A DNA stretch of 51,475 nt from Spirochaetota bacterium (GTDB taxonomy: Bacteria; Spirochaetota; Leptospiria; Turneriellales; Turneriellaceae), in assembly GCA_018240245.1 (NCBI GenBank), contig JAFEGD010000007.1:1-51475 (forward strand), in the 5' to 3' direction. The number at the start of each line of letters is the position of its first letter. Position 1 is the stretch's first letter. The translations under genes and the position numbers were made by a program. The notes under the pieces are model-generated. The model saw only the letters and a list, made by a program, of their open reading frames with translations. It made no database searches and had not been told where the DNA came from. Below, one piece after another: positions 25,896 through 38,314 of this stretch.

Positions 25896-25909
25896 TTGAT
25901 ATACATCAA
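25896..25909. promoter_or_regulatory. FNR/DNR box before the NO reductase-like operon
   Basis: TTGATATACATCAA is a perfect match to TTGAT-N4-ATCAA. Its centre (25902.5) is 41.5 bp before a predicted transcription start at ~25944, with TATCAA (25931-25936) as a possible -10. This is the class II activator position. Confidence 0.82.
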
Positions 25910-25968
25910 TGCGAAACTCTTTGATATGGTTATCAATCCGCAAGATTCTATTTGTTAAGGAGGGGGCA

Positions 25969-26205
25969 ATGCAAGAAGCGCAGACATTTAATAAGACATT
26001 GGGCCAGAAGATTTTCGACAATATCTGGTTCTTATTGTTTATCGGCATGGCGTTTCCGGGAGTTTTCTATCTCGGATGGGGACTTATGGAGATTTTTGTC
26101 TTCAACAACACCAAGCTGACTGATTACTTGAAGAAGAGTAACCAAACCTATTTGATTCAGGTCGAGCAACCCAAGGCTGACTCGGCTACGAGTGGCAAAA
26201 AATAA
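25969..26205 (+). CDS. Small membrane protein, first gene of the oxidase operon
   Basis: 78 residues from ATG 25969 (MQEAQTFNKTL), with one membrane segment (FDNIWFLLFIGMAFPGVFYLGWG). A strong Shine-Dalgarno AAGGAGGGGG supports this start over the upstream frame start at 25909, which would lie inside the DNR box. It is 9 bp from the CuA subunit gene. It may be a small structural subunit of the oxidase complex. No family recognised. Confidence 0.7.
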   Translation: MQEAQTFNKTLGQKIFDNIWFLLFIGMAFPGVFYLGWGLMEIFVFNNTKLTDYLKKSNQTYLIQVEQPKADSATSGKK

Positions 26206-26214
26206 GGAGTAACT

Positions 26215-26814
26215 ATGCCTATAGAAACACCAAAAAAAAACTGGTGGGAGCCTTTTAATCGCGAAGAGAAAATTTGGCTCTATATCTCGATTGCTTGGGG
26301 TATCGTCATGTTCGTCATGATGCCGCTCGGGCACTTCTGGAACCAGAACGTTTCTTCGGAAACTTACAAGACAAAACCCGAAGAATACAGTCAGATTATC
26401 CAAAAGTTTATCGGCAAATACCAGCGCAAAGACGCCACGGGACAACTCGTGACGCATAACGGCAAACCCGGCGGAATCCCCGTTGTCGAAGCCCCGACGA
26501 AAGAACAAGGCGATGCGTTTCTTGTCGCACAGGCATGGCAATTTCGCCCCGCGTTAGTGCTCAAGAATAACAAGACATATCGCATTCACATGTCTTCGCT
26601 CGACTTTCAGCACGGCTTTTCGCTGCAACCGCAGAACCTGAACCTACAGATTTTGCCCGATTACAGCTTCGTCATCACTTTCAAGCCTAACGAGGTCTTC
26701 AAAGCGGGCGAAAAGAGTAAATCGTTCTATCTGGTGTGTAACGAGTACTGCATGTTTGCGAATAAGACCAGCGGCCACGACAGTATGGTCGGGCAAATCA
26801 TAGTGGAGGAATAA
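26215..26814 (+). CDS. Heme-copper oxidase subunit II with CuA site
   Basis: 199 residues with one N-terminal membrane anchor (IWLYISIAWGIVMFVMMPLGHF) and a cupredoxin domain. CuA ligands are visible: His in MSSLDFQHGFSLQ and C-N-E-Y-C...H-D-S-M in the segment LVCNEYCMFANKTSGHDSM. The usual spacing CxExCxxxHxxM is extended: eight residues, not three, lie between the second Cys and the His. The CuA centre takes electrons from a donor such as a cytochrome c or cupredoxin and passes them to subunit I. The gene ends 1 bp before the catalytic subunit starts. Confidence 0.88.
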   Translation: MPIETPKKNWWEPFNREEKIWLYISIAWGIVMFVMMPLGHFWNQNVSSETYKTKPEEYSQIIQKFIGKYQRKDATGQLVTHNGKPGGIPVVEAPTKEQGDAFLVAQAWQFRPALVLKNNKTYRIHMSSLDFQHGFSLQPQNLNLQILPDYSFVITFKPNEVFKAGEKSKSFYLVCNEYCMFANKTSGHDSMVGQIIVEE

Positions 26815-26815
26815 C

Positions 26816-28447
26816 ATGAGTTTAGCGAATATAACGAACCAGTTTAGAACCTGCCCGACAACCGGACTACACGTCCACCTGCCGGCGCAGCGACTCATCT
26901 GGGCAAACGCCGTTTCAGCGGTGGTCTTTCTTTTACTCGGCGGTGTGCTCGCGCTTCTGATTGCGCTAACACGCTGGCCTGCGGTACACTTGTTGCCGCA
27001 AGATTTATTCTACCGATTCATTACCGCGCACGGCATGACAATGCTCGTGTTCTGGATTGTGTTCTTCGAGATGGCGGGCGTCATTTTTGCCGCACAAACC
27101 ATCTTGGGCTCGCGCTTTCCGGCGATTAAGTTCGGTTGGTTTAACTATATCCTGATGATTACGGGCGCCGTCATGGCCGAGATAATTGTGTTCATGGGCA
27201 AGGCGGATGTCATGTTTACCGCATACCCTCCGCTCAAGGCGCATCCGCTTTTTTATCTGGGGATTATCCTCTTTGCTGTGGGGGCACTCCTCTATTGCTT
27301 TCAATTTCTCTATGCGTTGGTTATCGCCAAAAGAGAAGGATGGCATAAAGGTAGTCTACCGCTCTTCACGTTCGGTATCTTGGTTGCTGTCATCATTACA
27401 ATCTTTACCCTCGTGTCGGGCGCGGCGGCGTTTATCCCCGCGTTTATCTGGAGCTTAGGCGACATGGTGACAACACACCCGCAAGATATCCCGGGCATCC
27501 TCTTGCCTCTCACAAAATGGACGGCGAATTTGATTCCGACCGTCGACCCCGAATACTATCGCATTACGTTCTGGGGCTTCGGCCACTCGGCGCAACAGCT
27601 CAACCTCGCGGCGATGGTATCGATTTGGTATCTCTTGGCGCACTTGACGACAGGCGCAAAGCCGGTGAACCAAAAGATGTGCCGTTGGGCGTTTGTACTC
27701 TATCTTTTGGGCATTAACTTGGGTTCGATTCACCATAACCTCGTCGACCCCGGTCTTTCGTCGACGTATCGTATCTTTAATACGAGCTATCTGTTCTACG
27801 CCGCGACGATCGGTTCGATGATCCATGCGTTCTCGATTCCCGCTGCGGTTGAAACCGCACAACGTGCGAAAGGCTTTAGTAAAGGTCTTTTCCAATGGCT
27901 CGTCAAAGCGCCATGGGGAGAGCCCGGTTTTTCCGGTATGGCAATCTCGCTCGTGATTTTCGGTTTCTTCGGCGGTGTAACCGGAATCATTCTTTCGGTA
28001 GAGCAGCTCAACATGCTTTCGCATAATAACCTGCGCGTACCGGGGCATTTTCACATGACCGTTGTCGGCGGTACTTCGCTTGCGTTTATGGCTCTCACCT
28101 ATTATGTAATCCCCCTTGTGCTGCAACGCCAGCTCATCGGTAAAACCATCGCGAAATTTCAGCCGTACGTATTCGGTATCGGCCTCATGATGTTCACGAC
28201 GGGCATGCACTTTGCCGGTGTGATGGGCGCACCACGCCGCCATTGGGATGTGACGTTCAGCAACGCGGTGATTCAAGTGCCGTTCGACGCAGCGATGTAT
28301 TCGATGCTCGCTCTCGTGGGTATCGGTGCGATTGCGGCGTTCACGGGTCTATTGATGTTTATCTACGTTGCGGTGATGTCGGTATTCTTCGGTAAAAAAA
28401 TTCCGTCGAAGATCGAGCCTTATGCACCCGCATTCGCAAAAAATTAG
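26816..28447 (+). CDS. Heme-copper oxidase subunit I, probable non-classical nitric oxide reductase
   Basis: 543 residues, 12 or so membrane segments. Ligands: His72 (ITAHGMT) and His413 for low-spin heme, His411 for the active-site heme (VPGHFH), His257, His306 and His307 for CuB (FGHSAQQ; GSIHHNLVDPG). O2-reducing oxidases have HPEVY or HPVVY here with a cross-linked Tyr; this protein has H257-S-A-Q-Q261, so the Tyr is Gln. Classical NorB also lacks Tyr, but NorB has HxxxE. The pattern, the CuA subunit and the nirK/nnrS/DNR context together suggest an eNOR- or sNOR-like nitric oxide reductase, though an unusual O2 reductase is not excluded. Confidence 0.85.
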   Translation: MSLANITNQFRTCPTTGLHVHLPAQRLIWANAVSAVVFLLLGGVLALLIALTRWPAVHLLPQDLFYRFITAHGMTMLVFWIVFFEMAGVIFAAQTILGSRFPAIKFGWFNYILMITGAVMAEIIVFMGKADVMFTAYPPLKAHPLFYLGIILFAVGALLYCFQFLYALVIAKREGWHKGSLPLFTFGILVAVIITIFTLVSGAAAFIPAFIWSLGDMVTTHPQDIPGILLPLTKWTANLIPTVDPEYYRITFWGFGHSAQQLNLAAMVSIWYLLAHLTTGAKPVNQKMCRWAFVLYLLGINLGSIHHNLVDPGLSSTYRIFNTSYLFYAATIGSMIHAFSIPAAVETAQRAKGFSKGLFQWLVKAPWGEPGFSGMAISLVIFGFFGGVTGIILSVEQLNMLSHNNLRVPGHFHMTVVGGTSLAFMALTYYVIPLVLQRQLIGKTIAKFQPYVFGIGLMMFTTGMHFAGVMGAPRRHWDVTFSNAVIQVPFDAAMYSMLALVGIGAIAAFTGLLMFIYVAVMSVFFGKKIPSKIEPYAPAFAKN

Positions 28448-28692: not shown

Positions 28693-30843
28693 ATGAAATT
28701 TCGAAACTCAATTTTTCAATACTTTTTATCCTTCTTTCAACGCGCCGATGCGGCCTTTAACCAAGTCTTCGGCGAAAAAGGAAATTTTCTCTATTACCTC
28801 GGTTCTTTACCGATTATTTTGCTTTTTGTGTTGCTCTTCACCGGGCTATTCATGTTCATTTATTACAATATGTCGGCGGGGCAGAGTTACGAATCGGTCA
28901 AGTACATGACCGAAAGCGCACTCTTCGGTCGCTTTGTTCGCAATTTACACCGCTATGCCGCCGACGCGATGATGTTCTTCGTCATCTTGCACATGGCGCG
29001 TATGCTCTTTGAAGAAAAGTTTCAAAACCACCGCGCGCTCGCGTGGGTGACAGGTCTCATCATATTGGCGCTGATGCTCGTGCAGGGTGTCACGGGCTAT
29101 ATCTTACCGCTCGACAGCAATGCGCGGTACGTGATGGAGAAAACGTCGGAGCTACTCGCAGGCCTCAAGGTCTTCGGCGATACGCTACCGCGCTCGTTTT
29201 CGTCGCCCGCCCTGCTCGGCAAATGGATCATGTGGGTGATAATGATTATCCACTTTGCAATTCCGCTATTTTTTATTGTACTTTTATTCTTGCACGTTCT
29301 GCGCGTATCGCGCGCGAAGATTTTTCCTCCGCGAAAAATTACGTATAGTTTTTTGGGGATGCTCGCGCTCTTCACGCTTATATTTCCGATTCAAATGGTC
29401 GGCAAAGCAGAGGCCGAAAAAGTCGCCGAGCTCGTGCAACCCGACTGGTTCTATTTGTTTTTTGCTGCGGTGTTCGATTCGCGGCACGGTTGGATTATTT
29501 GGAGTGCCATGGCGGCAACGTATCTCTTATTGCTTTTTCTCCCGAAAATTCTCAAGAAGCGCGAGATCTTGAAGGCGGTCGTCGATGCCGACAAGTGTAC
29601 GGGTTGCGGTCTCTGCGCCGTCGATTGCCCTTATGAGGCGATGACGATGATCGAGCGCAAAGACGAGTCGCGCTTCAAGCATCTTGTCGAAATCGACACG
29701 GCGCTTTGTGCGGGTTGCGGCGTCTGTTCGGGGTCGTGCAATTGGGATGCACTTACGTATCCCAACCCCGGTGCAGCCGAGAAAGAAATCGATTGGTCGC
29801 CAGCACAAGGTAAATGGGTGGCGCTCTTTTGCCAAGGGCGCGCGCATTCGCTGGGCATGCAAGCGGTGGCCGAACCGCTGCGCGAATTTGCTCCCGGCGC
29901 GGTTGCGCACGTCATGCCGTGTACGGGCAAGCTCGGCGCGAGTATGACAGAAAAAATTCGCGCGGGCGGGGCCAAGGGCATTGTCGTCGGTGCGTGCGCG
30001 AACGGCGACTGTTGGTACCGAGAGGGCAATAAATGGTTGCAAGAACGTATCGCGGCAAATCGTAAGCCGGTGTTTCGCAAGACGCCGCCGGAGTTTCCGC
30101 TGATCGGCGTCCGTTTTACTTCAGTGCAAAAAAAAGACGCACAAAAGGCAATCCTCGAAATTATCGAGAAGCAAACCCTGAATGGCAAGTCATTGCCGAC
30201 GCGCTTTTTTGCGATGCTGAAGCCTTCGACATGGGCGCATTCGTTCGCGATGAGTACGGTATTTTTTGCGCTCACGGTGTGGGTATTTTTCTTAGGCGCT
30301 TCGGGACGTTTTGGCGCGCTCAAGGCCGACAGCTCGCAGGCGATGTTGCGTCTCGACTTCTTTTATCAGACGCTCGAAGAAACGTGCTCGCCCGATAAAA
30401 TTCCACCGGGTGCCGAAAAAGCAGAGCTTGATCGTATCGCGGGGCTGATTAAGCTCGACCAACTCACGCCCGATGCGCGCGAAAATCTATTGAGGCAAGC
30501 GCGCGAAGGCGTTGCCGGTAAGTATTGTAGCCGCGCGCGCCGCTTGCTCGATATTATCGTCAAGGTCGACGGCAAAGAACTCGCACGACGCACGTTCAAT
30601 CCGTCGGGGTTGCACAACGACGGTATTACTTACGTGCTCATGAAAGAAGCGACGACACCGGGCCAGCATGCGATTGCGGTCGAGGCGCACGAGAAAGATT
30701 CGGCGTCGCACGGACGCAGCGTAGTTTTCAGCGAAACGCTATCGTTTGCGGGCGGCGAAGTGAAGTTGCTCGACTATAACCCGAATACGGCGAAGTTCTA
30801 TTGGCGCACGACTATCGATAGCACAGCAGGGGGGTCAAAATGA
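28693..30843 (+). CDS. Cytochrome b / 2x[4Fe-4S] ferredoxin / MvhD-like fusion protein
   Basis: 716 residues in four parts. 1-290: cytochrome b6-like membrane domain with heme pairs H86/H100 and H187/H201 and motif GVTGYILPLDSNA. ~300-355: two ferredoxin motifs, CTGCGLCAVDC (from 302) and CAGCGVCSGSC (from 339). ~370-485: MvhD/hydrogenase Fe-S subunit-like domain with cysteines C380, C410, C435 and C440 (ALFCQGRAHSLGM, HVMPCTGKLG, VGACANGDCWYREGN). ~505-716: one membrane span and a periplasmic beta-rich tail. It could carry electrons from quinol or a cytoplasmic donor to the oxidase, or the reverse. No bifurcating flavin domain is present. The gene is directly downstream of the oxidase and overlaps the next gene (ATGA). 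Confidence 0.85.
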   Translation: MKFRNSIFQYFLSFFQRADAAFNQVFGEKGNFLYYLGSLPIILLFVLLFTGLFMFIYYNMSAGQSYESVKYMTESALFGRFVRNLHRYAADAMMFFVILHMARMLFEEKFQNHRALAWVTGLIILALMLVQGVTGYILPLDSNARYVMEKTSELLAGLKVFGDTLPRSFSSPALLGKWIMWVIMIIHFAIPLFFIVLLFLHVLRVSRAKIFPPRKITYSFLGMLALFTLIFPIQMVGKAEAEKVAELVQPDWFYLFFAAVFDSRHGWIIWSAMAATYLLLLFLPKILKKREILKAVVDADKCTGCGLCAVDCPYEAMTMIERKDESRFKHLVEIDTALCAGCGVCSGSCNWDALTYPNPGAAEKEIDWSPAQGKWVALFCQGRAHSLGMQAVAEPLREFAPGAVAHVMPCTGKLGASMTEKIRAGGAKGIVVGACANGDCWYREGNKWLQERIAANRKPVFRKTPPEFPLIGVRFTSVQKKDAQKAILEIIEKQTLNGKSLPTRFFAMLKPSTWAHSFAMSTVFFALTVWVFFLGASGRFGALKADSSQAMLRLDFFYQTLEETCSPDKIPPGAEKAELDRIAGLIKLDQLTPDARENLLRQAREGVAGKYCSRARRLLDIIVKVDGKELARRTFNPSGLHNDGITYVLMKEATTPGQHAIAVEAHEKDSASHGRSVVFSETLSFAGGEVKLLDYNPNTAKFYWRTTIDSTAGGSK

Positions 30844-31517
30844 GATGTCGCGCAAGAATCTCGCTGATCGTCTTTTCAGCTCTCTACGTAACGTGCGCAC
30901 CGCCGAGCGAGAAGGCATACGAAAAAAGTTTTGCACTGCGCGCGGCGCGCGAACTCGATAGCATCGGCGACGACGAAACCGCTTTGTATTATCTTTTGCG
31001 CGCGAAAGGCGAAGCGGCGGCAAAAGTCGAAGCCGAGAATTTCTTGCGACTACTCGCCGAGCGCAAGACGCGCGCGAGCGGCTGCATCGAAGATAAGAAA
31101 GCCGATCTCGCAATTAACCAATACCCGCGCATTCGACACAAGCACCTTTTTCAAATGGGGTTGTGCCTCGAAGCGTTGGGCGACACGAAGCGCGCACTCA
31201 ATTTTTATAATTTATCCGAGACGGCGAGCTCGAAGCAACCGCAACTTTTTATTCGCCGCGCGTTACTCGAAGAACGATTAGGCGATAATACGGCGGCAGC
31301 GCGCGACTTCGCGCGAGCGCTCGCACTGAATCCGCAGTACCCGCCCGCGTTGCTCTCGCAAATTTTATTTCACTTAAGGCGAGGCAATAGCGCCGACGCC
31401 GAGGCGTTGTTAAAACCGCTCGCAGAAACGAAGGCGACGTACGCAGAGATTGCAAACGATGTGCGCGTACACCGCGCCGAAGTTGTTGCAATATGGGGTA
31501 AGACACATGGCAAATAA
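30840..31517 (+). CDS. TPR-like lipoprotein in the oxidase operon
   Basis: 225 residues with a lipoprotein signal (LYVTC, Cys19). The mature part has helix pairs of TPR type: KHLFQMGLCLEALGDTKRALNFYNLS, RRALLEERLGDNTAAARDFARALALNPQYPPAL (in parts: LLEERLGDNTAAARDFA, LALNPQYPPAL). Such proteins usually act as assembly scaffolds. It overlaps the preceding gene by 4 bp and the following SCO gene by 11 bp, so it is translated with them and may help assemble the complex. Confidence 0.72.
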   Translation: MRCRARISLIVFSALYVTCAPPSEKAYEKSFALRAARELDSIGDDETALYYLLRAKGEAAAKVEAENFLRLLAERKTRASGCIEDKKADLAINQYPRIRHKHLFQMGLCLEALGDTKRALNFYNLSETASSKQPQLFIRRALLEERLGDNTAAARDFARALALNPQYPPALLSQILFHLRRGNSADAEALLKPLAETKATYAEIANDVRVHRAEVVAIWGKTHGK

Positions 31518-32133
31518 TAAAAAGCGGCTGTGGTTTTTGCGCGGTATTGCCATTCTGCTCATGCTCGCATCGGGCTATATCGCGTGGTATACAATCGCGA
31601 AAGGTACGCCGCGCGATTTTTGGCAAGATCACCTCAATCGCAAACGCGGCAATCTACAGAATATCGCTGGCACGTTTACCGACCAAGACGGCAAACAAGT
31701 GACGCTCAAGAATTTTGCCGATAAAAACATTATCGCGACGTTCGTTTTCAAAGATTGTAATATGTCGTGCCCGATTATCATGAACGATTTGCGACTCTTT
31801 GAAAAAAATGCGCCCGACTTTGCGCGCTCGGGAAATTTTTTGATCTTCACTTTTGAAGACCACCGCAAAAACCCCGAAGAGTTGCGCGAATTCTTGAAAA
31901 AATATCGTATCGAGGGCGATCATTGGCGCGTTTTGACAGCCGACGCGGCGACAATACGCAAGTTGGCCGACACGTTCGAATTGCAGTATAATAAAGGCGA
32001 GGCGGGCAATTATATTTATGCGCACAGCAACGTTTTCATCGTCGCCGACAAGAACGGCGTCGTGCGTCGCGAGTTTCGCGGTATCGAGAACAATAAGGCG
32101 AAATTTTTCGAAGAGGTGAGAAAATTTTTGTGA
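31507..32133 (+). CDS. SCO1/SenC family copper chaperone
   Basis: 208 residues. N-terminal membrane anchor (FLRGIAILLMLASGYIAW), then the SCO thioredoxin fold with the copper motif C84-N-M-S-C88-P and His173 in YAHSNVFIV. SCO proteins deliver copper to CuA sites; the CuA subunit is in the same operon. The frame is open from 31450, but ATG 31507 gives the membrane anchor directly and is chosen. Confidence 0.9.
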   Translation: MANNKKRLWFLRGIAILLMLASGYIAWYTIAKGTPRDFWQDHLNRKRGNLQNIAGTFTDQDGKQVTLKNFADKNIIATFVFKDCNMSCPIIMNDLRLFEKNAPDFARSGNFLIFTFEDHRKNPEELREFLKKYRIEGDHWRVLTADAATIRKLADTFELQYNKGEAGNYIYAHSNVFIVADKNGVVRREFRGIENNKAKFFEEVRKFL

Positions 32134-32462
32134 TTAAGCAGTATAAGGGCACATTTCTTTTTTTGCTGTTGGGGTTGTGGGGGCTTTCTGCGGCGAACGG
32201 CGTCAAAGATTTTTGGTTCGAGATGCGCGCAAAGTCGACCGGCGAGATCATCAGCTATGCCTCGCTGCAAGAATTTTGCGGCTGGACGGGCGATAAGAAA
32301 ATCGGCGAAACCGATTTCGAATATGCGCTGCGCCGTGTGCGCAATATGTTCTCGGCGATTATGGCGATGAGTTTTTTATCGGTACTCTTGTTTGGAGCTA
32401 TCTTCGGTTCGATATTCGGCGTCTTTTATTGGGCTGGCGCATTTAAGGATGAAGAAATATGA
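32130..32462 (+). CDS. Hypothetical membrane protein
   Basis: 110 residues from GTG 32130, overlapping the SCO stop (GTGA). Two membrane segments: FLFLLLGLWGLSAANGV and MAMSFLSVLLFGAIFGSIFGVFYW, with a loop of about 50 residues between them. No family recognised. Its position between the SCO gene and the c-heme protein gene, with 4 bp overlaps on both sides, suggests a part in assembly or electron transfer. Confidence 0.65.
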   Translation: MIKQYKGTFLFLLLGLWGLSAANGVKDFWFEMRAKSTGEIISYASLQEFCGWTGDKKIGETDFEYALRRVRNMFSAIMAMSFLSVLLFGAIFGSIFGVFYWAGAFKDEEI

Positions 32463-33226
32463 GAATTTCCACGCGAATTTGGATAGCCGTTTCGGCGATT
32501 TTAACGATTGCGTCGCTCGCGATTAAATTCTATTTTTTGCCGGCGGTCGAGCGCTTCAATCGTCTCACCGTCGAAGAACAGATGCAGCGCGAAATGCTCG
32601 CATTTGAAAAAGTCTTGGCGGTCGTCGCCACCGCCGCCGACAAAAATATGGATTTTGTGCGCCGCTCGTTTCGCGCGATTAGCGAAGAAAAAGGCATTCA
32701 CGTCGAGTTGCGGCGCGACAAAATTCTCGACGAACAATTCGGCAAGAAAGACGATTATGCGCAGAACGATTTCGAACGCGAGGCGTTGCGTTCGCGCAAG
32801 CCGGCTTTTCGCGAGCACGACGGCAATATCGAATACGTCTATCCGCTGAAGGCGCAGAAACTCTGCCAGTCGTGCCACGTGACAGCAGAACACAAGCCGG
32901 TCGCGCTAGGGCAGCCGTTGGGGCTTGCGGTACGTAAACTACCGCTCTCGATATTCACCGATTCTCCGATCAGCTATTTTACGCTCGATTTATTTTGGCA
33001 AAATTTTGCGCTCCTCGCTTTCTGTATGATTGCGTTAATCGTACCGGTATGGTTTTGGATATTGCGCCCCTTACAGCGGCTTGCCGATAAAAGCGACGCG
33101 ATTGTACACCGCCGCGACATGGCAAACGAAGAAGACAAGGTGTCGTTGATTTCCGAAACGGAACAAATGCCCGAAGAATGGCGTTCTATCCGAAGGATTA
33201 TCGACGATGCACACGACAAACACTGA
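32459..33226 (+). CDS. Membrane c-type heme protein, sensor-like
   Basis: 255 residues: N-terminal membrane segment (IWIAVSAILTIASLAIKFYF), ~130-residue periplasmic domain with a c-heme motif C136-Q-S-C139-H140, second membrane segment (LLAFCMIALIVPVWFWIL) followed by a HAMP-like stretch (LRPLQRLADKSDAI). The layout resembles Tll0287/DUF3365-type heme sensors lacking an output domain. It may sense NO/redox state or pass electrons. It overlaps the heme A synthase gene by 20 bp. Confidence 0.75.
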   Translation: MRISTRIWIAVSAILTIASLAIKFYFLPAVERFNRLTVEEQMQREMLAFEKVLAVVATAADKNMDFVRRSFRAISEEKGIHVELRRDKILDEQFGKKDDYAQNDFEREALRSRKPAFREHDGNIEYVYPLKAQKLCQSCHVTAEHKPVALGQPLGLAVRKLPLSIFTDSPISYFTLDLFWQNFALLAFCMIALIVPVWFWILRPLQRLADKSDAIVHRRDMANEEDKVSLISETEQMPEEWRSIRRIIDDAHDKH

Positions 33227-34226
33227 TTCGCAAAAACCCGTTCGCTATTGGCTCTACGCATGCGCGGCGATTGTGTTTGCGATCGTCGTCATCGGCGGCA
33301 TCACGCGCCTCACGCGCTCGGGTCTTTCGATCACCGAATGGAAACCCGTGAGCGGCGTTGTGCCGCCCTTGACCGCAGCGCATTGGCAGAGCGAATTCGA
33401 TAAATATAAAGCCACGCCCGAATATCATCATGTCAACCGCGGCATGAGTCTCGACGAGTTCAAGAATATCTATTGGTGGGAGTTCATCCACCGCATCTTC
33501 GCTCGGCTTGTCGGCGTTGTCTTTCTCATCCCTTTTCTGTGGTTTTTATACAGAAGGCAAATTAGCCGAGCATTAGGCGCGCGACTCGCGTTCGTGTTTC
33601 TCTTAGGCGGCTTTCAAGGTTTTCTCGGTTGGTACATGGTGAAAAGCGGGCTCGTCAACGACCCGCACGTGAGTCACTTACGCCTCATGAGTCATCTCAT
33701 GACCGCGGTCTTGATCTATGCGCTGATTCTCATGACCGCGTGGGGGCTAAAGACCGAATCGCGCGAACGCCAACATAGTTTTGGCGCTGCGGCCATGGTC
33801 GCGTTCGCGTTTCTGATTCTCGCGAGCGGCGCACTCGTCGCGGGTCTTAAAGCGGGCAAAATGTACAACACGTTTCCGCTCATGAACGGCGCATATTTTC
33901 CACCGGGCACCGAGTGGCTTAGCCCGAGTTATACGAATTTCTATAATAACCCCGGTGTGGTGCAGTTCGAACATCGCAATCTTGCGTACGCATTCGGATT
34001 GCTTATGGCGGTGTTGGTTTGGCGCGAGCGCAAAAATCTATCGATCAGACATCCGCTCGCTCTTGTGATTGTCGCATACTTATTACAAGTACTTCTCGGA
34101 GTATTCACACTCTTGCATGCCGTACCCGTGTCGCTGGGGGCGCTCCACCAAACGAACGCTTTGATTCTCTTTACGACGGCGCTATGGTATTGGGCGGCGA
34201 AACGCTATGCGCTCTGCGCTTTTTAG
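33207..34226 (+). CDS. ctaA: Heme A synthase (COX15/CtaA family)
   Basis: 339 residues, eight membrane segments. The family signatures are present: GGITRLTRSGLSITEWKPVSG, WWEFIHRIFARLVG (H95), MSHLMTA (H163), FEHRNLAYAFG and LHQTNAL. It hydroxylates heme O to heme A, so the nearby oxidase probably carries A-type heme. No CtaB (heme O synthase) is seen in the window. It is the last gene of the operon; the stop codon lies inside the hairpin terminator. Confidence 0.92.
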   Translation: MHTTNTDSQKPVRYWLYACAAIVFAIVVIGGITRLTRSGLSITEWKPVSGVVPPLTAAHWQSEFDKYKATPEYHHVNRGMSLDEFKNIYWWEFIHRIFARLVGVVFLIPFLWFLYRRQISRALGARLAFVFLLGGFQGFLGWYMVKSGLVNDPHVSHLRLMSHLMTAVLIYALILMTAWGLKTESRERQHSFGAAAMVAFAFLILASGALVAGLKAGKMYNTFPLMNGAYFPPGTEWLSPSYTNFYNNPGVVQFEHRNLAYAFGLLMAVLVWRERKNLSIRHPLALVIVAYLLQVLLGVFTLLHAVPVSLGALHQTNALILFTTALWYWAAKRYALCAF

Positions 34227-34948: not shown

Positions 34949-35046
34949 GGACGAAGATCAAAAAAGGGTGTACTGGTAAACTAATCTAAGGTAGTTATGC
35001 TGCTCGGCAATATTACACCTTAGGGTACATGATTCATGGAGGATAT

Positions 35047-36462
35047 ATGAAATCCCAAAATAAGCGCTCCGTAGGTATCGCCATCGCGCTGGTCGGCATA
35101 ATGCTCGTACCCGCAACAATCGCTTGCGGCAAAAAGACCGAAAAGGCCGTGCTTGCGCATGCGCCGAATGTGCCGCCGCAACTCAACCGCAGCGGCAACG
35201 CGAAAGTGATTATCGAACTCGAAACAAAAGAGCTTAAAGGTCGCCTCGCCGACGGCGTAGAATATACGTTCTGGACCTTCGGCGGCACCGTGCCCGGCCC
35301 GATGATGCGCGTGCGCGAAGGCGACGACGTCGAGTTTAAACTCTCGAACCACCCCACGAGCAAGATGCCGCATAACATCGACTTACACGCGGTCACCGGC
35401 CCCGGCGGTGGCGCAGCGGCGTCGCTCACCTCGCCCGGCCACAGTTCGACGTTTTCGTTCAAGGCGTTAAACCCGGGTCTCTTTATTTATCATTGCGCCA
35501 CTGCGCCGGTCGGTATGCACATCGGCAACGGCATGTACGGTCTCATCTTAGTCGAACCCAAAGGCGGATTACCCTCTGTGGACAAAGAGTTCTACCTATT
35601 ACAGTCTGAGTTTTATACCAGCGGCAAAAATGGGCAGGCGGGTTTGCAAGCATTCGACATGAACAAAGCACTCGACGAAAAGCCCGAATACGTCGTCTTT
35701 AACGGCTCGGTGGGGGCTTTGATCGGCGACAAGACGCTCAAGACAAAAGTCGGCGACAAAGTGCGTTTTTTCGTCGGTAACGCTGGCCCGAATCTTGTTT
35801 CGTCTTTTCACGTGATCGGTGAAATTTTCGATAACGTTTACAGCGAAGGCGGCAGCGAGCGTAACCAGAAAAACGTGCAGACAACGTTGATACCGGCAGG
35901 CGGTGCGGCGATTGTCGAGTTCAAAATGGAAGTCCCTGGTAGTCACGTGATTGTCGACCACTCGATTTTTCGCGCGTTCAACAAAGGCGCCTTGGGGCTG
36001 ATCGTTGCCGAAGGCGAACCGAATCTTGCGGTCTATTCGGGCAAACAACTCGATACCGTTTACTTGCCCGAAGGGGGGGCGACGCAGACAATCCCTGCCG
36101 ATCAAGCGCAGAAGCAAATGCCCAAGACAAAAGAAGAGCGGCTTGTTGCCGGCAAACGAATTTTTGCGAGCGTCTGTCAGGCTTGCCACATGAGCGAAGG
36201 CCAAGGTGTACCGCAGGCTTTTCCGCCGCTCGCGCAGTCTGATTTCTTGAATGCCGATAAGAATCGTGCAATCAAGATCGTTCTCGACGGTAAGTCCGGC
36301 CCCATCACCGTAAACGGGAAAAAGTTTGATAGTGTGATGCCGGCCTTAGGCTTAAGCGACGACGATGTCGCGAGCGTACTCACGTTTGTCTTAAATTCGT
36401 GGGGTAACAAAGGCGGCGAAGTGACGCTCGCCGAAGTTGCTTCGCAAAGGAGCGGGCACTAG
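35047..36462 (+). CDS. nirK: Copper nitrite reductase fused to cytochrome c, lipoprotein
   Basis: 471 residues from ATG 35047 (GGAGG upstream). Lipoprotein signal with Cys27 (ATIAC). Two cupredoxin domains: type 1 copper ligands H109, C150, H158, M163; type 2 copper ligands H114, H149, H305; catalytic D112 and H255. After ~365 comes a cytochrome c domain with C377-Q-A-C380-H381. It reduces nitrite to NO in the periplasm; the cytochrome domain probably supplies electrons directly. It is followed by a strong hairpin and a NirV-like gene. Preceded by a DNR box. Confidence 0.95.
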
Positions 36463-37809: not shown

Positions 37810-37906
37810 GTTTATGCTGTGTCGCCGCGAGAAAAAGAGGTTTTTATCCGCTTTATGCAGGGCACCACTTTGATGCCGATGCAGAGCGTAAGCGGTGGAG
37901 GCGAAT

Positions 37907-38314
37907 ATGAAGCGACTCGAATGGAATGTACAGTACAGCGTCGGCGTACCCAAGATCGACCAACAGCACGCTTACCTCTTTGAACTTGCGAATCGGCTCG
38001 CTAAAAACGCCGGGGTCGACAATCGTTGGGGCGAGCTTGGCGATATCATCGCCGAGTTACATAAATATGTCGATACGCATTTTACCTATGAAGAAGAGAT
38101 TATGGCGCAGGCGCACTACGACGAACTTGAAAAGCACAAGAAGATGCACGATTTAATGCGCACGCGGCTCGACCTCTTGACTGCGCAGCTTAAACAGGGT
38201 TTACTCAATCGCAGCGAACTCATCGAGTTTCTCGAAGAATGGCTCACGATTCATATCTTGCGCGAAGACATGAAATATATTCCCGCTGTTGCGCAGTTGT
38301 CGTCGTCTGTCTAA
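37907..38314 (+). CDS. Bacteriohemerythrin 1
   Basis: 135 residues from ATG 37907 (GGAGG upstream). Di-iron ligands are present: DQQHAYLF, HFTYEEEIM, HKKMH, HILRED. Hemerythrins bind O2 and some bind or reduce NO. Here it stands between the nirK/SCO genes and nnrS, separated from the latter by a DNR promoter. It is one of three in this region. Confidence 0.92.
   Translation: MKRLEWNVQYSVGVPKIDQQHAYLFELANRLAKNAGVDNRWGELGDIIAELHKYVDTHFTYEEEIMAQAHYDELEKHKKMHDLMRTRLDLLTAQLKQGLLNRSELIEFLEEWLTIHILREDMKYIPAVAQLSSSV

Follow-up and report, generated by a model that had tools for sequence, protein, structure and literature searches.

A membrane protein with a cytochrome b, a two-cluster ferredoxin and an FlpD/MvhD domain fused in one chain, followed by one more helix and a periplasmic tail, accompanies a single clade of eNOR-type NO reductases. 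The partner of this fusion is one eNOR clade, not Tyr-less oxidases in general, and its presence splits eNOR into two kinds. Judging from the sequences, we hold the chances to be evenly balanced that the fusion serves as a dedicated quinone-active membrane electron-transfer partner of that clade. The electron supply of an NO reductase decides whether NO respiration saves energy, and it bears on the formation of N2O.

The fusion gene starts 0.25 kb behind the gene of oxidase subunit I in the window, i.e. the whole stretch of 51,475 nucleotides analysed here (table 1). The earlier note had read four heme-binding histidines, eight ferredoxin cysteines and an MvhD-like cysteine set in this one protein. 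All were found, the last in reduced form: the canonical FlpD set comprises five Cys including a CxxC motif, and the fusion lacks the second Cys of the CxxC. The FlpD match scores 29.9 bits against a Pfam cut-off of 22.3, and it is the sole FlpD match in the window's whole genome. Genes for a hydrogenase or a heterodisulfide reductase, the two enzymes that MvhD normally links, are also missing among the recurrent neighbours, and a bridge of this kind is not supported. The domain matches include neither a Rieske nor a cytochrome c domain. Chance or mis-assembly as the source of the arrangement is ruled out by the strong domain matches, by the kept ligands and by finding the domain order again in hundreds of loci.

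Table 1. Parts of the fusion protein and genes of its surroundings in the window (coordinates in nucleotides; aa, residues of the encoded protein).
Feature	Coordinates	Strand	Basis and remarks
Small membrane protein	25909..26205	+	recurrent upstream of subunit II; matched in 24/80 related loci
Subunit II	26215..26814	+	CuA ligands H133, C175, E177, C179, H188, M191, all kept
eNOR-type heme-copper subunit I	26816..28447	+	COX1 family; Gln261 in GHSAQQ
Fusion gene, ATG start, 716 aa	28693..30843	+	ORF, domain matches, alignment, model
Cytochrome b helices A-D, aa 31-205	28783..29307	+	Cytochrome_B (PF00033) 31-205, E 1.3e-24; ligands H86, H100, H187, H201
Helices E and F, aa 214-286, PEWY-like loop PDWFYL around D251	29332..29550	+	structural match continues through
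Two-cluster [4Fe-4S] ferredoxin domain, aa 295-354, predicted cytoplasmic	29575..29754	+	Fer4 296-317 (E 4.9e-9), Fer4_7 301-353 (E 6.8e-9); Cys 302/305/308/312 and 339/342/345/349
FlpD/MvhD domain, aa 374-460	29812..30072	+	FlpD (PF02662) 398-457, E 6.3e-7; HdrA2 profile; C380, C410, C435, C440
Last membrane helix, aa 514-536, at helix G place	30232..30300	+	structural alignments
Periplasmic beta-sandwich tail, aa 537-716	30301..30840	+	model, tail alignment; Cys pair C565/C612
TPR protein	30840..31517	+	same gene run; matches in Spirochaetota loci only, at the sensitivity used
SCO/SenC copper chaperone	31450..32133	+	PF02630; start overlaps TPR gene, true start may be later
Membrane-anchored protein, one CxxCH heme c motif	32459..33226	+	homologues in L023-L027 except where cut
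CtaA heme A synthase	33207..34226	+	PF02628, E 4.5e-106
NirK fused to C-terminal cytochrome c	35029-36462		TIGR02376, 365 bits, over cut-off
Bacteriohemerythrin	37895-38314		relatives near fusion in 17/81 loci

Conservation was read from an alignment of 81 members, made of the window's protein, our own ORF calls of at least 480 aa and eight sequences from the genome search; members in high-GC loci where the wrong strand was called (e.g. L032, L041, L050, L059, L065) and split or short members are not included. Each of the four heme His is present in all 81 members, and the spacing within the two His pairs is 13 and 13 residues in 72 of them and 13 and 14 in nine. The Cys of the first ferredoxin cluster are kept in 79/81 and those of the second in 79 to 81. 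In the FlpD set, C380 and C410 are each found in 80/81 members, C435 in 79/81 and C440 in 65/81. Variation of the cluster cysteines among homologues had been named in the earlier note as evidence against its reading, and little of it is seen except at C440. The FlpD cluster site appears less certain than the strictly kept cytochrome b and ferredoxin parts, and its cluster may be absent or different in the 16 members where C440 is missing. The residue at the place of the Glu in the PEWY motif of complex III, D251 in the window, is Asp in 78/81 members and Asn in three (motif xDWFYL). Five loci (L068, L040, L043, L052, L087) hold two fusion copies each. The second copies in L052 and L087, the only members without the first ferredoxin cluster, have also lost parts of the FlpD set and keep the heme His; they look as if cytochrome b heterodimers exist.

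An AlphaFold2 model of the fusion (45 sequences) is confident (mean pLDDT 89.7, pTM 0.88) and bears out the additional membrane span and the periplasmic tail of the earlier note, as a helix at 514-536 and a beta-sandwich. Its top structural matches are the cytochromes b of complex III (VIA Z 20-24, rmsd 2.4-4.2, 250-270 residues). Most of these alignments run from about residue 13-31 of the model to about 541-548 and end near residue 343 of mitochondrial cytochrome b, which we take to be the end of helix G. About 260 residues are aligned over this whole span, and therefore the iron-sulfur part is skipped in the match. In the model, helices F and G flank the ferredoxin-FlpD module, and the extra span sits at the place of helix G. 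The domain that had been called b6-like is thus well named as to helices A-D and too narrowly as to the rest, as E, F and a G-like helix are also there. By analogy with the topology of cytochrome b, the iron-sulfur module would lie on the cytoplasmic side.

Defluviimonas and several loci of alpha- and gammaproteobacteria encode the last helix and the tail in a separate gene directly 3' of the main one. In an alignment of the window's tail with 33 of 39 others (without L034, L069, L076, L097, L099 and L101), the two Cys are both there in 21 tails and both missing in 13, as expected of a putative disulfide. The same pattern makes a metal site in the tail unlikely. Foldseek gave no match to the tail at E <= 0.001; the best VIA match was a domain of human HGSNAT (Z 8.7, rmsd 3.1, 97 residues aligned), and the others were mixed beta-sandwiches with weak scores.

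The neighbouring oxidase is, by the residue criterion, an NO reductase of the eNOR type (Gln for Tyr). Its subunit I is closest, among solved structures, to the Thermus ba3 oxidase, with Gln261 replacing the cross-linked Tyr. A Gln at this active-site position is given as the mark of eNOR in Table A4 of PMC8756737, and the window shares with eNOR operons both this Gln and a subunit II with CuA. The subunit II of the window and of L023 has a five-residue insertion between the Cys pair and the His of CuA (CNEYCMFANKTSGHDSM), and the other nine aligned sequences are CNEYCGIGHHTM-like at CuA and without the insertion. A second SCO gene lies further downstream in the window, together with the NirK-cytochrome c and bacteriohemerythrin genes. 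Recurrent neighbours were collected by single-linkage clustering over the raw ORFs of 81 loci (L022-L102), and clusters may hold false members. SCO is found near the fusion in 34/80 loci by direct match and in 64/81 by clustering. A NirS-like cluster (one member checked by Pfam) occurs in 15/81 neighbourhoods, and NirK-cytochrome c in the window and some other loci. Hence, the setting is one of denitrification. A NirK-cytochrome c protein with 63% identity also stands close beside a fusion-free eNOR in L189.

The earlier note had called for a search for the same domain order. The scan of species genomes retrieved at least 571 relatives of the fusion, and the order recurs among the best 80 of them, which represent more than a dozen phyla and include two archaeal records. 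We studied the loci of these best 80, a sample that is hence biased toward the window. A Gln-type subunit I lies within the fetched DNA of 64 of the 80, on the same strand in 51 cases (median gap 1.5 kb) and on the opposite strand in 13; a gene found mostly without the oxidase, which the note would have counted against its reading, is not what we see. Among the remaining 16 loci, two have a different and degenerate oxidase-like protein near the fusion (L043, L046) and 14 have no subunit I match. The genomes of ten of these 16 carry a strong eNOR match elsewhere (>670 bits; G061, G063, G068-G072, G074-G076). This leaves six locus genomes of the 80 without a strong eNOR match: L030 (159 bits only), L051, L062, L089, L045 and L079. 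Three of them (L051, L062 and L089, from Obscuribacterales, Melainabacteria and one other bacterium) encode a shorter cytochrome b-ferredoxin relative at the end of a gene cluster that also codes for a Rieske-like protein, another cytochrome b and, at least in L051 and L089, a CcoNO-like oxidase. In L062 and L089, FlpD stands as a gene of its own.

We then analysed co-occurrence at the genome level. In a sample of 348 Pseudomonadota genomes, with thresholds of >500 bits for the fusion and >780 bits for the eNOR clade, each of the two was found in 20 genomes, both in 19 and neither in 327. The one genome with the fusion alone (G186) has it on a contig of 5.3 kb; in the one with eNOR alone (G146), the contig ends within 50 bases behind a SCO-like ORF, where the fusion often comes next. 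In G142 and G158, a single contig holds both genes at a distance of 13-19 kb; six other carriers have them on separate contigs, perhaps through assembly breaks. Among 146 Rhodothermia genomes, the fusion and eNOR (>=816 bits) are present in the same 12. Fisher tests gave 4e-29 and 8e-18, values that overstate independence as the sampled genomes are related and that should not be taken as probabilities, and three carriers were known beforehand (G072 and G077 in Pseudomonadota, G437 in Rhodothermia).

Eight further Rhodothermia genomes encode a more distant NOR (560-603 bits) and, unlike the window, no fusion. All four of these NORs that were read have the Gln. In a quick tree, whose outgroup of five Tyr-type sequences was reduced to three by a length filter, the four fusion-free NORs are a clade with support 1.0; next to it stand the 26 NORs that accompany a fusion, as a clade with a support of only 0.69. 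There is a sister Gln-type clade without the fusion (8/146 genomes), and therefore eNOR chemistry does not need it. The link to Tyr-less oxidases proposed in the earlier note is borne out by the 64/80 loci and by 19/20 and 12/12 carrier genomes, once it is narrowed from these oxidases at large to the one clade.

The fusion resembles several known systems in part. With the cytochrome b of bc1 and b6f complexes (PF00033), it shares helices A-D, the four heme His, helices E and F, the PEWY-like motif and the G-like helix. Unlike these proteins, it carries the ferredoxin-FlpD module between F and G, has an Asp for the Glu of PEWY and an extra periplasmic tail, shows no visible helix H and stands in a gene run without a Rieske or cytochrome c1/f partner. 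No Rieske protein was seen among the recurrent neighbour clusters of the 81 loci, and Rieske-like genes occur beside the shorter relatives only. At the genome level, some Rieske-domain protein is present in 28 of 34 genomes and none in six; the window's genome has one, and no PF00032 match. Across 22 genomes, cytochrome b C-terminal domains are found in seven and NrfD-type proteins, which could belong to an alternative complex III, in 19. These counts speak neither for nor against a replacement of complex III by the fusion.

Cytochrome b models aside, the top NCBIfam match is HdrA2, a single model that spans both the ferredoxin and the FlpD domain (aa 289-457, E 7.6e-18). In proteobacteria, the matches of the family profile that rank next are HdrA2-like proteins (about 740 aa), which have just the ferredoxin-FlpD part in common with the fusion; we presume that these are QmoB. 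The C-terminus of HdrA2/QmoB has the same ferredoxin and MvhD domains in the same order, but the fusion has a cytochrome b in place of the FAD part, and its FlpD Cys set is reduced. Another system, CcoG/RdxA, is compared below. A public ORF, RME88945.1, resembles the fusion in its listed domains: Table A3 of PMC8756737 assigns cytochrome b6, DMSOR-beta (ferredoxin) and FlpD to it, and the table's title adds a cytochrome c ('C1') domain homologue.

Even where the two genes are apart, the fusion goes with one eNOR clade, and for this reason we propose that it supplies or drains electrons for eNOR. With its heme ligands, quinol motif and inner-face iron-sulfur module, the protein looks able to exchange electrons among quinol, the b hemes and the clusters. 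Quinol would bind on the periplasmic side, at the DWFY motif close to heme bL, and the two b hemes would conduct across the membrane to the iron-sulfur module at the inner face. Electrons could thereby be shared within one assembly among the quinone pool, a soluble cytoplasmic carrier and, via the CuA of subunit II, eNOR; the periplasmic tail may help to dock this assembly. No dedicated cytosolic partner is recurrent in the neighbour clusters of the 81 loci, and the soluble partner would therefore be a general carrier. The fusion would then be a cytochrome b relative that works without a Rieske protein and provides eNOR with a device of its own for electron input or output. As to direction, input to eNOR from quinol, cytoplasmic carriers or both is the simplest reading of the sequences and our first choice; output of electrons to the cytoplasm comes second. 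There is no evident exit from heme bL to CuA because the fusion is without a Rieske or cytochrome c domain.

The same co-occurrence with eNOR would be expected of an assembly factor, i.e. a heme-containing analogue of CcoG that takes cytoplasmic electrons outward and reduces Cu(II) for the SCO-mediated building of CuA and CuB. CcoG/RdxA has a similar layout: membrane helices, a cytoplasmic two-cluster ferredoxin between them, a last helix and a periplasmic Ig-like tail, all encoded next to an oxidase. SCO is among the commonest neighbours of the fusion, and heme A/O synthesis genes are nearby. Yet CcoG is not known to have b hemes, an FlpD domain or a cytochrome b fold, and cupric reduction needs no periplasmic quinone motif such as the DWFY kept around D251. 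The tail is also without conserved metal ligands, its Cys pair behaving as a disulfide, and neither six fused tails nor the separate tail protein P0001 gave a match to the Pfam family of the CcoG/FixG C-terminus, which is weak evidence. On balance, we regard an assembly factor as less likely than an electron-transfer partner, but as a serious rival.

Other readings keep electron transfer and change its terms. The quinol motif and a low-potential-type module lie on opposite sides of the predicted membrane protein, joined by two b hemes, as in a machine formed with eNOR that splits quinol electrons: one to eNOR and NO, the second via the b hemes into the ferredoxin-FlpD module and on to reduced ferredoxin or NAD(P)H. 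As an oxidant, NO is very strong, and many carriers are MAGs of lineages known for lithotrophy. If such bifurcation occurred, NO respiration would drive reverse electron transport to low-potential carriers, by a Rieske-free Q-cycle with ferredoxin among its outputs, powered by the large driving force of NO reduction. However, a Rieske-like mobile acceptor is lacking, no flavoprotein partner is recurrent nearby and the fusion also occurs in lineages not known for lithotrophy; we find this reading quite improbable. Slightly more doubtful, in our judgement, is a ferredoxin:quinone oxidoreductase whose sole task is to reduce quinone from the cytoplasm, with no physical attachment to eNOR. The shorter relatives adjoin a Rieske/cytochrome b cluster with a CcoNO-like oxidase, and therefore the module as such is not restricted to NO chemistry, but an enzyme of general use would hardly be expected to co-occur almost one-to-one with a single eNOR clade.

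We found no description of the fusion in the literature searched, and an earlier account in the main eNOR study may exist. A widespread fusion that tracks one eNOR clade predicts a second electron route and hints at an undescribed path of electrons in denitrification. It can also serve as a marker that separates its NOR clade from the oxidases that annotation mixes up with it. Contact between ferredoxin and cytochrome b has long been debated for cyclic electron flow, and the fusion is a natural covalent link of the two.

A second COX1-like protein of about 460-480 aa is encoded near the fusion in 42/81 loci (e.g. L046:4287-5729, L043:4090-5529, L027:12658-14049). When the window's genome was searched with the L027 copy, only the window's own subunit I matched. 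The protein keeps the His of helices II, VI and X and, three residues past the one in helix VI, a Gln, and 41 of the 42 are missing the HH pair in the helix VII span, i.e. two CuB ligands. From these residues, it looks like a heme-copper subunit without CuB.
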